Source: Gaetbulibacter saemankumensis DSM 17032
GTDB lineage: Bacteria > Bacteroidota > Bacteroidia > Flavobacteriales > Flavobacteriaceae
Reading direction: 5' to 3'
Length of the DNA: 64,000 nucleotides
Assembly (NCBI RefSeq): GCF_000425645.1
Contig: NZ_AUDV01000006.1
Coordinates: 248,001-312,000 of the forward strand
A program made the position numbers and the translations under genes. Below, piece after piece: positions 38,163 to 41,426 of the stretch. Numbering within the stretch: position 1 is the first letter of the stretch; every line of letters starts with the position of its first letter. Under the pieces are notes generated by a model. It was given only the letters and a program-made list of their open reading frames with translations, ran no database searches and had not been told where the DNA came from.

Positions 38163-39428
38163 ATGAAAAGACCAATTACAAAAGTCTTAATTACTTTACT
38201 TTTAACATTAAGTTTTACGTTTTATTCTTTCAGTCAGGAACCAAAACCATTCAAACCAACTATCAAGTGGAATCTTAAGTCTCAATTTTGGCTAAGGTAT
38301 TCCGACCTTAATGAAGGTTCTGAAATTCACGGCGAACCCACATCAGATTTTTTCGATGTTTCTATTCGAAGATTACGCATCCCTGTTTCATCTCAAATTA
38401 CCCCTAAAATATTTGCCTATGCTATTTTTGGAGGCAACAATTATAACTTTAAAGGAGATTCTTTCCCAATTGGAGTCCTAGATTTATATATTGAATATTC
38501 ATTTTTTAAACAATTTGAAATTGGTTTTGGAAAATCGGGCTGGCAAGGATTAAACCGTTGGAACATTAGATCAAGTATGACACTTATGGGACTGGATTCA
38601 CCTCTCTTTACTTTAAACTCCGTGGAGATTAATGATGACATAGGTCGCTTATTCGGTTTTTGGTTTAAAGGTCAAGCAGATAAATTTGACTATAGAATGA
38701 CTTTTAACCGTCCCTTTTATGTTAAAAAAATCCCGAATGGTTCGGTAAATTTTGCTAATAATAAACCTAGAGTAAAAACCTCGGCGTATGTTAAATATCA
38801 AATTTTTGAACACGAATCTAATAAATCTGCATACCAAATAGGTACCTATCTACAAAATAAGAAAGTTTTTAATATTGGTGCCGGTTTTCAATTTCAACCC
38901 GAAGCTATGAGTGACGGTGATGCAAACCTTCCTGAAACCAATATTTATGATATTTCACATTTTGCTGCAGACTCTTTTTTAAACCTACCATTAGCAAATG
39001 GTAATGCCATTACGGCTTATCTTGGCTATTACGATTATGATTTTGGAAAAAATTACATTCGTAATGTGGGTGCCAACAACCCCACTACCGGCGGAGGTAC
39101 AGACTTTAACGGACCAGGAGTTGCCTTTCCTATGATTGGTACAGGCACAACATGGTACGGACAATTTGGTTATGCATTTAAGCAAACACAGATATTAAAT
39201 CATTTAACAGTAATTCAACCTAATATTGCGGTACAATATTCTGATTGGGATGCGTTAAATAATCATATGACAGTTTATGATTTTACTGTAAACTTTCTTA
39301 TTAACGGGTCTCAAGGCAATAAAATAAGCTTAGGATATCAGCATCGACCAATCTTTGAAGCCGAAACCTTAAAACAAAAAGACTACAAAGGCATGGCTGT
39401 TCTTCAATATCAAATTTCATTGAAATAA
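38163..39428 (+). CDS. Outer-membrane porin, phosphate-selective porin O/P-like
   Basis: Beta-barrel outer-membrane protein of 421 residues with signal peptide ending SFSQ. Typical porin features: KWNLKSQFWLRYSDLN at the start of the mature part, FFDVSIRRLRIPVSSQITPKIFAYAIFGGNN, FEIGFGKSGWQGLNRW, and a C-terminal strand MAVLQYQISLK. The pattern resembles the O/P porin superfamily (PF07396). The solute is unknown. It is a single-gene unit between gyrB and the Asn-tRNA operon. Confidence 0.8.
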   Translation: MKRPITKVLITLLLTLSFTFYSFSQEPKPFKPTIKWNLKSQFWLRYSDLNEGSEIHGEPTSDFFDVSIRRLRIPVSSQITPKIFAYAIFGGNNYNFKGDSFPIGVLDLYIEYSFFKQFEIGFGKSGWQGLNRWNIRSSMTLMGLDSPLFTLNSVEINDDIGRLFGFWFKGQADKFDYRMTFNRPFYVKKIPNGSVNFANNKPRVKTSAYVKYQIFEHESNKSAYQIGTYLQNKKVFNIGAGFQFQPEAMSDGDANLPETNIYDISHFAADSFLNLPLANGNAITAYLGYYDYDFGKNYIRNVGANNPTTGGGTDFNGPGVAFPMIGTGTTWYGQFGYAFKQTQILNHLTVIQPNIAVQYSDWDALNNHMTVYDFTVNFLINGSQGNKISLGYQHRPIFEAETLKQKDYKGMAVLQYQISLK

Positions 39429-39607
39429 CTATCTATAAAAGAGTTCTAAATCAATTCTAACAAGCCTTTTGGAGAAATTGTTTTAATAATTTTAAGGATT
39501 ATTTTAAATCGATTATAGAAAAAACAAATTAAACATACGTTTATTAACAATTCTACAATAGACCAAATCTGAATAAAAAAAATTACTCCTAGTCTATTTA
39601 TTCTATA

Positions 39608-39615
39608 TATCTTTG
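39608..39615 (+). promoter_or_regulatory. -7 promoter element for the Asn leader / gatC operon
   Basis: TATCTTTG fits TAnnTTTG and lies 16 bp before the leader ATG. It would start transcription near 39621, giving a very short untranslated stretch before the leader ORF. No -33 TTG is evident. Confidence 0.5.
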
Positions 39616-39631
39616 AAGGAGAATTAAACCT

Positions 39632-39679
39632 ATGACAATCAATAACAACAATAATAATTTCAATAATCCTAATTTTTAG
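39632..39679 (+). CDS. Asn-rich leader peptide (15 codons) of the gatC-gatA-gatB/aspS operon
   Basis: Short ORF encoding MTINNNNNNFNNPNF: nine of fifteen codons are Asn, with six in a row (AAT AAC AAC AAT AAT AAT). An AAGGAG purine run ends 10 nt before the ATG, unusual in a phylum that rarely uses Shine-Dalgarno sites, although it may lie at the transcription start. The stop is followed within 5 nt by GGAAGG, which can pair with the ascending arm of the terminator downstream. The arrangement is that of leader peptides such as TrpL and HisL. Because the operon makes Asn-tRNA(Asn), I infer that ribosome stalling at Asn codons under low Asn-tRNA lets transcription read through. The peptide itself probably has no other role. 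Confidence 0.75.
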   Translation: MTINNNNNNFNNPNF

Positions 39680-39683
39680 GACA

Positions 39684-39739
39684 GGAAGGTTATTGTTAAA
39701 AAATATGAAAGGCCTTCCAAATGTGGAAGGCCTTTTTTT
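39684..39739 (+). terminator. Transcription attenuator: antiterminator arm plus intrinsic terminator
   Basis: Terminator stem AAAGGCCTTCCA (39708-39719) / TGGAAGGCCTTT (39724-39735), 4-nt loop, then T run to 39739. The upstream GGAAGG (39684-39689) is complementary to CCTTCC (39713-39718) in the left arm, so the two pairings exclude each other. A ribosome at the leader stop (39677-39679) would cover GGAAGG and favour termination. One stalled on the Asn codons (39641-39658) would leave it free. It lies 17 bp before gatC. Confidence 0.75.
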
Positions 39740-39756
39740 AATACTAAATTTAAGAT

Positions 39757-40026
39757 ATGAGTAAAATTATGACTGTCGACATATTGTCGAGTATTAAAGG
39801 AGCACAGCCCAGTGAAGCCGTGAGCAAATTATTTGATGTCATTAAAAATGCACAATCAACAAATAATAACTCTTTTAATAATAAGGGTAATAATTGTGTA
39901 TCATTAAATGATTTGCGAGACGATATCGTCGTTGAAAGTTCAGCCATCGAAAAACAGATTATTATAGAGAACTTCCCAAAAGAAAAAAATGGCTATTTGG
40001 TGGTTTCTAAAATTATAGAAGAGTAA
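39757..40026 (+). CDS. gatC: Divergent GatC-like subunit of the tRNA amidotransferase
   Basis: Protein of 89 residues directly before gatA. The C-terminal half follows the GatC pattern: LNDLRDDIVVESSAIEKQIIIENFP-like stretch, then GYLVVSKIIEE, comparable with the family's LReDe...NAP...gyfkVPkii. The N-terminal helices are divergent. GatC is a small linker that holds GatA and GatB together. Residues 31-51 contain nine Asn (NAQSTNNNSFNN, KGNNC). Context (attenuator, gatA 2 bp downstream, gatB/aspS) strongly supports GatC, although sequence similarity is weak. Confidence 0.72.
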   Translation: MSKIMTVDILSSIKGAQPSEAVSKLFDVIKNAQSTNNNSFNNKGNNCVSLNDLRDDIVVESSAIEKQIIIENFPKEKNGYLVVSKIIEE

Positions 40027-40028
40027 TT

Positions 40029-41426
40029 ATGGAATCACAAATACACAAAATACACCAGCAACTTGTTAACAAGGAAATATCTTGCACCCAACTCGTTCAA
40101 GAAAAGTTAGAAGCATTAAAAGCTAATACCAACAACACCGTAAATTCGACCTTAGATGACACAGCTATTAACCTAGCAAAGAAAATAGATCATAAAATTG
40201 CTAACGGCGAAGCCATTGGTTTATTGGAAGGCATTCCTTTTGGAATTAAAGATGTATTTATGCTTCAGGGAACAACCACGACTGCAAGTTCTGAGTTATT
40301 AAAAAATTACAAATCCGCTTACACAGCAACGGCTATACAAAAGTTATTAGACGCTGGTGCCATACCAATCGTAAAAGAGAACTGTGACAGTTTTGGTCAC
40401 GGATCATCGAGCGAAAACACCATTTTTGGAGCAGTAAAGAATGCTATTAACCCCGACTTAGTTGGTGGAGGGTCCAGTGGCGGATCGGCAGTAAATGTCG
40501 CAAAAGATTACACCGTATTTTCAATTGGTGGGGATACCGGAGGATCGGTTCGTCAACCCGCAGGCTACAACCACGTATATGGCTTAAAACCAACTTACGG
40601 ACGTATTTCTCGATACGGCTTAATGGCTTACGCCTCCTCTACAGATTGTGTTGGTCCCATTGCTAAATCAGTAGAAGATATTCGTATTGTATTAAATGTG
40701 ATGTCCGGAAAAGACATTAAAGACCAAACAACTTATGTTTCAGAAAGTATTCCTAAAGAAAGCATTTTACATTCAGACATAAAAACGGTTGGATATTTTA
40801 AAAACTTTGTCGAAAGTGAAGCCATCGACCCTAAAATTAAAGAAGACTTTTTAGCGACGATTGAAAAAATAAAAGCCAAAGGTATAGAAGTGAAAGAACT
40901 GGACTTTTTCAAATCTGACATTCTGGTTTCAACTTATTATACTTTGGCCATGGCGGAAACGGCTTCAAACTTATCTCGTTTAGATGGCTCCAATTACGGT
41001 AACCGTATCGATGATAAAAACCTAAAAGAATCTTACGCTATAACACGCTCTGAGAATTTCTCAGAAGAAACCAAACGCAGAATTGTTGGTGGAAACCAGG
41101 TATTATCACAAGGATTTTCAGATGAAATTTACTTAAAAGGATTGGCCCTAAGAGATGCTATTGCTGAAAATTTTGAAAAAGATTTCGAAGAAGTGGATAT
41201 AATCATCTCACCAGTAACACCAAATACGCCACCTAAAATTGGCAACAGTTTAAAAGACCCCTTAGCCATGTATTTAAGCGATGCTTATACGGTTGGATTC
41301 AGTCTTGGACAACTACCCACACTCACCGTACCAAAAGGCACAGAAACTGGCTTACAAATAACAGCCGCAAAAACAAATGACGAACTTGTTTTGAAGTTTG
41401 CTAACTTCTTAAAAGACACATTATAA
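40029..41426 (+). CDS. gatA: Asp/Glu-tRNA amidotransferase subunit A
   Basis: Amidase-signature subunit that hydrolyses Gln and passes ammonia to GatB. The Ser-cisSer-Lys triad is visible: GIKDVFM near residue 75 with the Lys, and VGGGSSGGSAVNVA near 150 with GGDTGGSVRQPAGYNHVYGLKPTYGRISRYG following. 465 residues, slightly shorter than the usual ~485. Its last base overlaps the first base of gatB/aspS. Part of the gatC-gatA-gatB/aspS operon under the Asn attenuator. Confidence 0.95.
   Translation: MESQIHKIHQQLVNKEISCTQLVQEKLEALKANTNNTVNSTLDDTAINLAKKIDHKIANGEAIGLLEGIPFGIKDVFMLQGTTTTASSELLKNYKSAYTATAIQKLLDAGAIPIVKENCDSFGHGSSSENTIFGAVKNAINPDLVGGGSSGGSAVNVAKDYTVFSIGGDTGGSVRQPAGYNHVYGLKPTYGRISRYGLMAYASSTDCVGPIAKSVEDIRIVLNVMSGKDIKDQTTYVSESIPKESILHSDIKTVGYFKNFVESEAIDPKIKEDFLATIEKIKAKGIEVKELDFFKSDILVSTYYTLAMAETASNLSRLDGSNYGNRIDDKNLKESYAITRSENFSEETKRRIVGGNQVLSQGFSDEIYLKGLALRDAIAENFEKDFEEVDIIISPVTPNTPPKIGNSLKDPLAMYLSDAYTVGFSLGQLPTLTVPKGTETGLQITAAKTNDELVLKFANFLKDTL

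Follow-up and report, generated by a model that had tools for sequence, protein, structure and literature searches.

A putative leader-peptide attenuator responsive to Asn-tRNA in front of a gatC-gatA-gatB::aspS operon in Gaetbulibacter saemankumensis and related Flavobacteriaceae

The gatC-gatA-gatB::aspS operon of Gaetbulibacter saemankumensis DSM 17032 is very probably controlled by a ribosome-mediated attenuator that would gauge usable Asn-tRNA(Asn), and the operon itself most likely replaces asparagine synthetase; this reading rests on sequence and comparison. The window, i.e., the whole stretch of DNA analysed, is 64,000 nucleotides long (contig NZ_AUDV01000006.1, positions 248,001 to 312,000, forward strand), and the features concerned are collected in Table 1. 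Ribosome-mediated attenuation by Asn had been proposed for this locus by an earlier sequence-only reading, and the proposal is supported by comparison (leaders before 58 of 80 operon loci, no Lys in the Asn run, stems kept), without expression data. If it is true, an Asn-specific ribosome-mediated attenuator, which was not found described in the open-licence PMC literature, would do by a translated leader what Clostridium does by a T-box, and tRNA-dependent Asn synthesis would replace the canonical synthetase in many Flavobacteriaceae by means of one fused enzyme.

Table 1. Features of the leader region and the operon, in window positions.
Feature	Position	Strand	Basis or remark
Match to the flavobacterial sigma-A -7 box, TATCTTTG	39608..39615	+	consensus TAnnTTTG; absent from the sequence-only reading
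Leader peptide ORF, MTINNNNNNFNNPNF followed by the stop	39632..39679	+	9/15 Asn; window and 58/80 named loci
Segment 1, AACAATAAT, within the run of Asn codons	39647..39655	+	pairs with 39689-39697; MFE fold
Small stop-codon hairpin UCCUAA-UUU-UUAGGA	39667..39681	+	leader fold
Segment 2, with the antiterminator 5′ arm GGAAGG at 39684-39689	39684..39697	+	leader fold
Intrinsic terminator, with stem arms 39707-39719 and 39724-39736 and a U tract at 39733-39739	39707..39739	+	fold
gatC, divergent	39757..40026	+	NCBIfam gatC 22 bits, cut-off 47.1; no Pfam match
gatA	40029..41426	+	NCBIfam gatA 442.2 bits, cut-off 481.1; Pfam Amidase 384.1 bits
gatB::aspS fusion, 1111 aa	41426..44761	+	single frame; Pfam/NCBIfam

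First of all, the Asn-rich leader ORF which the sequence-only reading had placed before the operon is present as claimed, from its ATG at 39632 to a TAG that ends at 39679. It is the only ORF with at least 55% Asn among the 423 ATG-started ORFs of 12–20 codons found on both strands of the window, and none of the 28,045 such ORFs in 60 windows simulated by a first-order Markov model reached this share. A chance ORF is ruled out by the simulated windows together with this uniqueness. The leader before gatC is about 120 nt long, and from the -7 box match TATCTTTG the transcript is inferred to begin some 10 nt ahead of its ORF's ATG; the consensus of this box for the flavobacterial sigma-A is taken from the available part of PMC9723704. 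Of the 59 leaders described below, 55 have such a box in the 30 nt that precede their ATG, at a distance of 10–20 nt from it; it is missing from that stretch in L084, L099, L107 and L108, the box of L099 sitting one base further up than the 30-nt limit. Further upstream, at 38163-39428, a porin-like protein is encoded (NCBIfam ExtI 51.9 bits, under the cut-off of 150).

Both arms on which the proposed switch depends were located in the sequence. The GGAAGG arm past the stop, as claimed, lies at 39684-39689, with 4 nt separating it from the TAG, and the terminator carries CCTTCC in its left arm at 39713-39718 and ends 17 bp before the gatC ATG (39757). The left arm of the terminator constitutes segment 3 and the right arm, with a second GGAAGG at 39725-39730, segment 4. 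CCTTCC can pair with either GGAAGG, so that the antiterminator (39684-39691 with 39711-39718) and the terminator are mutually exclusive. When the leader RNA was folded, a check that the sequence-only reading had suggested, the full leader formed a structure and both the terminator and the alternative GGAAGG:CCUUCC pairing were available. The terminator alone reaches −20.7 kcal/mol (z −5.25), and the full leader fold, which consists of the segment 1:2 stem, the stop hairpin and the terminator, reaches −32.6 kcal/mol (z −5.36). The automatic terminator scan listed the terminator on the minus strand only; in our reading, which is untested, this is because the plus-strand stem uses up its own Us.

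The layout of the segments had to be revised. The antiterminator and terminator arms of the sequence-only reading stand, but its three segments do not exhaust the RNA, which offers four. It had included neither the segment 1:2 stem (39647-39655 / 39689-39697) nor the stop hairpin (39667-39681), and a simple three-segment layout is ruled out, since segments 1 and 2 pair too. The stop hairpin can explain why the Pro codon CCT and the sequence TAG G are kept.

The folding results also bear on how the switch could be thrown. GGAAGG:CCUUCC forms when the RNA stops just past the CCUUCC arm and segment 1 is taken away, whereas the full-length RNA in isolation favours the terminator; therefore, antitermination must be kinetic, as in trp. 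In a ribosome-blocking model, in which the footprint was assumed to extend from −15 to +15 around the P site and the transcript start was taken as 39621, the antiterminator had in silico a probability of 1.00 with the A site at any codon from 4 to 14, and of 0.00 with the A site at codon 15 or at the stop. The last Asn codon is in this model the final stall position which still leaves GGAAGG free. In the same model, with no ribosome and with CCUUCC just emerged, the antiterminator reached 0.90–0.98; an untranslated leader may therefore be ON, depending on folding kinetics.

The circuit which we propose is inferred from these pairings, as are the stalling, termination and readthrough that it involves. 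When Asn is ample, AsnRS would charge tRNA(Asn) with Asn from outside, and the ribosome would then run through the Asn codons to the UAG and cover GGAAGG (39684-39689), so that the CCUUCC:GGAAGG terminator would form and the operon would be off. When Asn-tRNA is scarce, the ribosome would wait at any Asn codon from 4 to 14; such a stall would open the segment 1:2 stem, GGAAGG would be free to pair with CCUUCC, the terminator would fail and the operon would be made. In the absence of a ribosome, segment 1 could pair with segment 2, as in trp. The fused AspRS would load Asp onto tRNA(Asn) and GatCAB would amidate it to Asn, so that the product would feed back on a pathway of two steps. EF-Tu should accept Asp-tRNA(Asn) poorly; on a more tentative view, therefore, a translated leader, unlike a T-box, would gauge finished Asn-tRNA rather than charging, and finished Asn-tRNA is the signal that a two-step amidation pathway needs.

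As for the genes behind the leader, the gatCAB/aspS set named by the sequence-only reading is there, except that gatB and aspS form a single fused gene, which it had missed. GatA and GatB are recognized by Pfam and NCBIfam and GatC only weakly, below the cut-off; since GatC and GatA both fall under their NCBIfam cut-offs, the GatCAB is divergent. The fusion protein is composed of GatB (about residues 14–477), a linker, and a bacterial-type AspRS with a GAD domain (518–1111). Comparison places the fusion beyond a single genome: the frame is uninterrupted in each of the 79 loci with a complete gene (in L083, the remaining locus, the sequence breaks off within gatB), the linker is variable, and the RDHG motif is found in 79 of 79 fusions, which makes the protein a candidate for a natural covalent transamidosome. 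Moreover, the fused AspRS has in 79 of 79 cases a His at the position aligned to His31 of the P. aeruginosa AspRS, which we take to be a marker of non-discriminating tRNA choice, and the stand-alone AspRS has Lys there. At the position aligned to P. aeruginosa Gly83, presumably a second marker of relaxed tRNA choice, the fused AspRS has Asp. The non-discriminating activity is thus an inference, and the enzyme could be tested directly in E. coli Asn auxotrophs. Across the family, an orthologue of this gatA (E ≤ 1e-150) occurs in 44 of 299 genomes, and the operon's gatA in 37 of the 236 genera drawn.

A separate feature of these loci is that GatC residues of about 29–50 are rich in Asn, at a mean of 35% over the 80 loci (L031-L110); over the same loci Asn makes up 12.5% of the whole GatC vs 5.4% of GatA and the fusion. 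It may form a loop that serves some separate function, or provide a further checkpoint for Asn-tRNA.

The purpose of the operon was judged from the other enzymes of the genomes that carry it. AsnRS exceeds its cut-off in all 60 genomes searched, the genome of G. saemankumensis included, and the latter also carries a stand-alone AspRS. An operon serving as the sole charging route for want of AsnRS is ruled out by this count. In the sequence-only reading, the operon had been an Asn-tRNA route; the transamidation gene set supports this, but not as the only route to charging, AsnRS and a second AspRS being present, so the operon looks like Asn biosynthesis rather than the sole charging of tRNA-Asn. 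By comparison, the canonical asparagine synthetases are absent where the operon is present: over the cut-offs, neither AsnB (NF006949) nor AsnA (TIGR00669) was found in any of the 44 operon-bearing family genomes (0/44 each), vs one or the other in 34 of 36 operon-free genomes (AsnB in 31; AsnA in 3, those without AsnB; Fisher 1.4e-20 for 0/44 vs 34/36, kinship ignored). The 36 operon-free genomes are not a random sample, 30 having come from the list of relatives and 6 from weak matches to the covariance model R1 described below, and the two with neither enzyme are 88% and 80% complete. The G. saemankumensis genome, which is 99.95% complete, has no AsnA and no match over the cut-off to NF006949 or TIGR01536. 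In addition, AsnB is lacking from 47 of the 48 genomes reached via the named operon loci, both Paraglaciecola included; this set overlaps the 80-genome set, is not independent of it, and was scored for AsnB and not for AsnA. L100 (genome G341), a leaderless locus on a 7-kb contig of a MAG, is the only one of the 48 with a full AsnB, and either contamination or a transitional state may account for operon and AsnB together. The single tRNA-Asn found by pattern in the G. saemankumensis genome starts with T and pairs with A72, as judged by eye, i.e., it has the U1-A72 pair that GatCAB needs in tRNA-Asn according to the available part of PMC4206432.

The presence of AsnRS in 60 of 60 genomes would also suit a real attenuator whose operon serves as a stress backup for AsnRS or as a source of Gln-tRNA, not as Asn biosynthesis, and the available part of PMC4206432 records that bacterial GatCAB can amidate Glu-tRNA(Gln). 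We think such a role unlikely, in view of the canonical AsnA/AsnB counts just given (0/44 with the operon vs 34/36 without it) and also of the fact that the fusion partner is AspRS, not GluRS, and that the leader codons are Asn, not Gln. A Gln-tRNA role is nevertheless not excluded, GlnRS not having been searched for. Another point on its side is that 3 of 7 operon genomes (G002, G006 and G034; that of G. saemankumensis is not among them) contain AsnB-like proteins over the TIGR01536 cut-off, a model run on 7 of the 44 operon genomes and not on the other 37. These are four proteins of 570–618 aa (L114-L117), which pass TIGR01536 and fail NF006949; we read them, without a test, as other amidotransferases, perhaps for surface sugars, and the absence of a synthetase in these three genomes is not settled. 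Asparagine biosynthesis for the cell itself, switched on when outside Asn fails, remains the most likely role of the operon, the making of Asn for the cell being inferred. It is a more tentative idea, which we offer as possible and no more, that in many Flavobacteriaceae a fused GatB-AspRS transamidosome replaced the synthetase and would be made only when the ribosome is short of correctly amidated Asn-tRNA.

The attenuator can be examined apart from the function of the operon through its conservation. When GatA was used as the query of a protein search, 80 named loci were obtained, of which 78 belong to Flavobacteriaceae or Flavobacteriales and 2 to Paraglaciecola (Alteromonadaceae). The sequence-only reading had made its proposal refutable by a lack of Asn codons and stems in relatives, and it survived, a leader preceding the same operon in 58 of these loci. 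Together with that of the window there are 59 leaders of 14–17 aa, each with 6–10 Asn, and all 59 end with TAG. In a codon table of the 56 leaders with the standard register (L092, L107 and L108, of other length, were excluded), the eight columns of the run hold Asn in 423 of 448 cells and Lys in none; AAT is used 340 times and AAC 83 times, and only 3 of the 448 cells have a third base other than T or C. Codon −2 is less conserved, with Lys in 9 of 56 leaders. This codon pattern supports translation of the leader ORF, although translation itself is not shown. In the two Paraglaciecola leaders, MTNNAQNNNWNGNNLNY and MINNAQHNNWNGNNLNS, Asn makes up 9/17 and 8/17 of the residues and the FNNP motif is gone; the peptides have diverged and are still Asn-rich, so richness in Asn has persisted where the remainder of the peptide has not.

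The residues other than Asn leave room for a different kind of sensing. In the TnaC and erm leaders, the peptide itself arrests the ribosome in the exit tunnel. If F-N-N-P-N likewise stalled the ribosome there, a small molecule would be sensed instead of Asn-tRNA, and Phe in 55 and Pro in 55 of the 56 standard-register leaders are indeed more than a pure Asn counter needs. However, both codons have possible partners in the RNA (GGAA of segment 2 for the Phe codon UUC, UAGG of the stop hairpin for the Pro codon CCU), the replacement of Pro by Ser in L083 has a compensating base after the stop, which points to an RNA constraint, and the Paraglaciecola leaders stay Asn-rich without FNNP, so that we regard nascent-peptide arrest as highly improbable.

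A riboswitch, a protein-binding RNA or a T-box-like element, working without translation of the ORF and leaving the Asn codons as a by-product of A/U-rich pairing, seems to us just as hard to accept. Segment 1 does fall within the codons and has segment 2 as its partner, and AAC is concentrated at codon −10 (46 of 56), as pairing would favour. On the other hand, the third bases of the run, with their 3 exceptions and no Lys, are not what pairing alone would leave; the unpaired codons −12, −11, −5 and −4 are Asn in 49, 53, 55 and 56 of the 56 leaders; and the ORF ends with the same TAG throughout. Furthermore, no Rfam family, T-box included, matches the window at its gathering score. A T-box or other known riboswitch was rejected as a candidate on this ground, there being also no T-box among the 12 weak matches within 39500-39800.

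Ribosome-mediated attenuation further predicts that the RNA arms are kept, and this was counted on alignment A3, which contains 47 of the 59 leaders. Five near-copies (L033, L052, L070, L077 and L105) and seven leaders with badly aligned tails (L045, L075, L081, L082, L086, L091 and L099) were left out, the latter omission favouring the pair counts. Over the 47 leaders, the segment 1:2 helix is paired in 93.4% of cells, with one both-sides change, the stop hairpin in 99.6%, and the terminator helix in 98.9%, with two pairs changed on both sides; in L083, one C-G to U-A change in the stop hairpin is the one that turns Pro into Ser. The OFF fold as a whole is paired in 97.0% of cells, compared with 33.7–60.2% in slid controls, and has 4 pairs with both-sides changes, a number reached by none of 500 shuffles. 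The antiterminator helix is paired in 98.7%; because it is nearly invariant, covariation says little for it. Its 5′ arm deviates in six leaders (L082, L084, L092, L095, L096 and L101). RNAalifold on alignment A2 gave a consensus that held only the stop hairpin and the antiterminator; we put the gap down to misaligned terminator tails, and the named structures were therefore counted on A3. Both Paraglaciecola leaders keep the antiterminator and terminator arms, and in the one that was folded (L107) the terminator and the antiterminator are evident but the segment 1:2 stem is not.

The leader is not an obligatory companion of the operon. In 22 of the 80 operon loci, no leader was found within about 1.3–1.5 kb upstream, so leader control is dispensable; 19 of these 22 have a TAnnTTT[AG] box starting 28–50 nt before gatC. 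That the operon is kept without the element in those 22 loci is what one would expect of a mere constitutive terminator/promoter region insulating gatC from upstream, its short ORF untranslated, but this would leave the Asn conservation, the invariable TAG and the exclusive pairings unexplained, and a terminator between promoter and gene would simply block the operon, so that we give it almost no credence. On a quick tree of GatA and the fusion, the state of the attenuator leader changes 12 times, at least 5 of them forced by well-supported branches; the leader has thus been lost, or gained, repeatedly, which provides natural comparisons. The operon with its attenuator in Paraglaciecola (Gammaproteobacteria; L107 and L108), on a long branch of 0.42, is an apparent case of horizontal transfer between phyla. 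A scan of viral contigs for the exact leader core gave 0 matches.

The family was also searched with a covariance model, R1, built from leaders of the same clade in which its matches then fell. Among 299 family genomes, 28 contain an R1 match of 98 bits or more; below these, the best score drops to 55.5 bits. Of the strong matches, 26 lie just upstream of the operon's gatA, and the remaining two are on broken or ended contigs (in G192, gatA is on a different contig; in G147, the contig ends 384 bp past the match). Of the 27 weaker matches, five were inspected, and four of these proved to be Trp or Ile/Val leader peptides: the Trp leaders MKNNNTHTWWWNLRNALSQ and MKNNNTHIGWWKLRNALSQ precede trpE, MKRNLINIIAVVIIVIISQ precedes ilvD, and MKNNNIIFIISIIAFARR precedes ilvE. 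With their terminators, they lie at L124 (177-296, reverse complement), L125 (237-353), L123 (300-412) and L127 (243-353). The fifth, G000:C1:1419576 (45 bits), was set aside, as it resembles a plain terminator that follows a different ORF. The Trp and Ile/Val leaders are in other Flavobacteriaceae, so the attenuator mechanism class exists in the family.

Ribosome-mediated attenuation itself is classical: in the attenuators of the trp/his/phe type, the leader peptide is rich in the end-product amino acid. The element described here resembles them (Rfam Trp_leader, Phe_leader and Thr_leader) in its short end-product-rich ORF, its mutually exclusive segments and a stop just before the antiterminator arm, and the best sub-threshold Rfam match is in fact Phe_leader (38.8 bits vs a gathering score of 55). 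It differs from them in that the codons are Asn codons, the operon is one for tRNA-dependent amidation with a fused GatB-AspRS, segment 1 lies within the sensing Asn codons, and no Rfam family matches at threshold. Within the same family, the available text of PMC9723704 presents strong indications that amino-acid operons of Flavobacterium psychrophilum are preceded by leader-peptide attenuators, candidates to which the present leader is alike in kind; the part of its main text at hand mentions no leader for gatC, Asn or transamidation. Neither a ribosome-mediated Asn attenuator nor a GatB-AspRS fusion was found in the literature, the search being confined to open-licence PMC papers.

The enzyme has its own relatives. 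PRK12820 (NCBIfam NF009460), a bifunctional AspRS/GatC fusion, likewise joins AspRS to an amidotransferase subunit, but the partner there is GatC, and the window protein scores 467 against the NF009460 cut-off of 1379. As far as the available part of PMC4206432 goes, Deinococcus, Thermus and Bdellovibrio make Asn on tRNA with AsnRS, GatCAB and an AspRS acting on tRNA(Asn), without AsnA/AsnB. G. saemankumensis agrees with them in having AsnRS, GatCAB and AspRS, no AsnA/AsnB and a U1-A72 tRNA(Asn), and with Deinococcus and Thermus in having a second AspRS, which in that survey's group without synthetase is given for Deinococcus-Thermus only; unlike theirs, the second AspRS of G. saemankumensis is of the bacterial type, has a GAD domain and is fused to GatB. 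In the same portion of that survey, the word "fusion" is absent and no leader-peptide attenuator is described.

The claim of the sequence-only reading that Asn-responsive attenuation of such an operon was without precedent holds for a leader-peptide attenuator, none having been found in the open-licence PMC papers searched, but was too wide, because an Asn-responsive T-box is known. In Clostridium acetobutylicum, according to Saad 2012 and 2013 as cited in PMC4206432, and to PMC4052509, the transamidation operon is under a tRNA(Asn)-responsive T-box, so that both systems have in common the tRNA(Asn)-responsive transcription control of a tRNA-dependent amidation operon. A T-box reads tRNA directly without translation, and the one in Clostridium senses tRNA(Glu) too, whereas the present element would sense Asn-tRNA by way of the ribosome that translates the leader.
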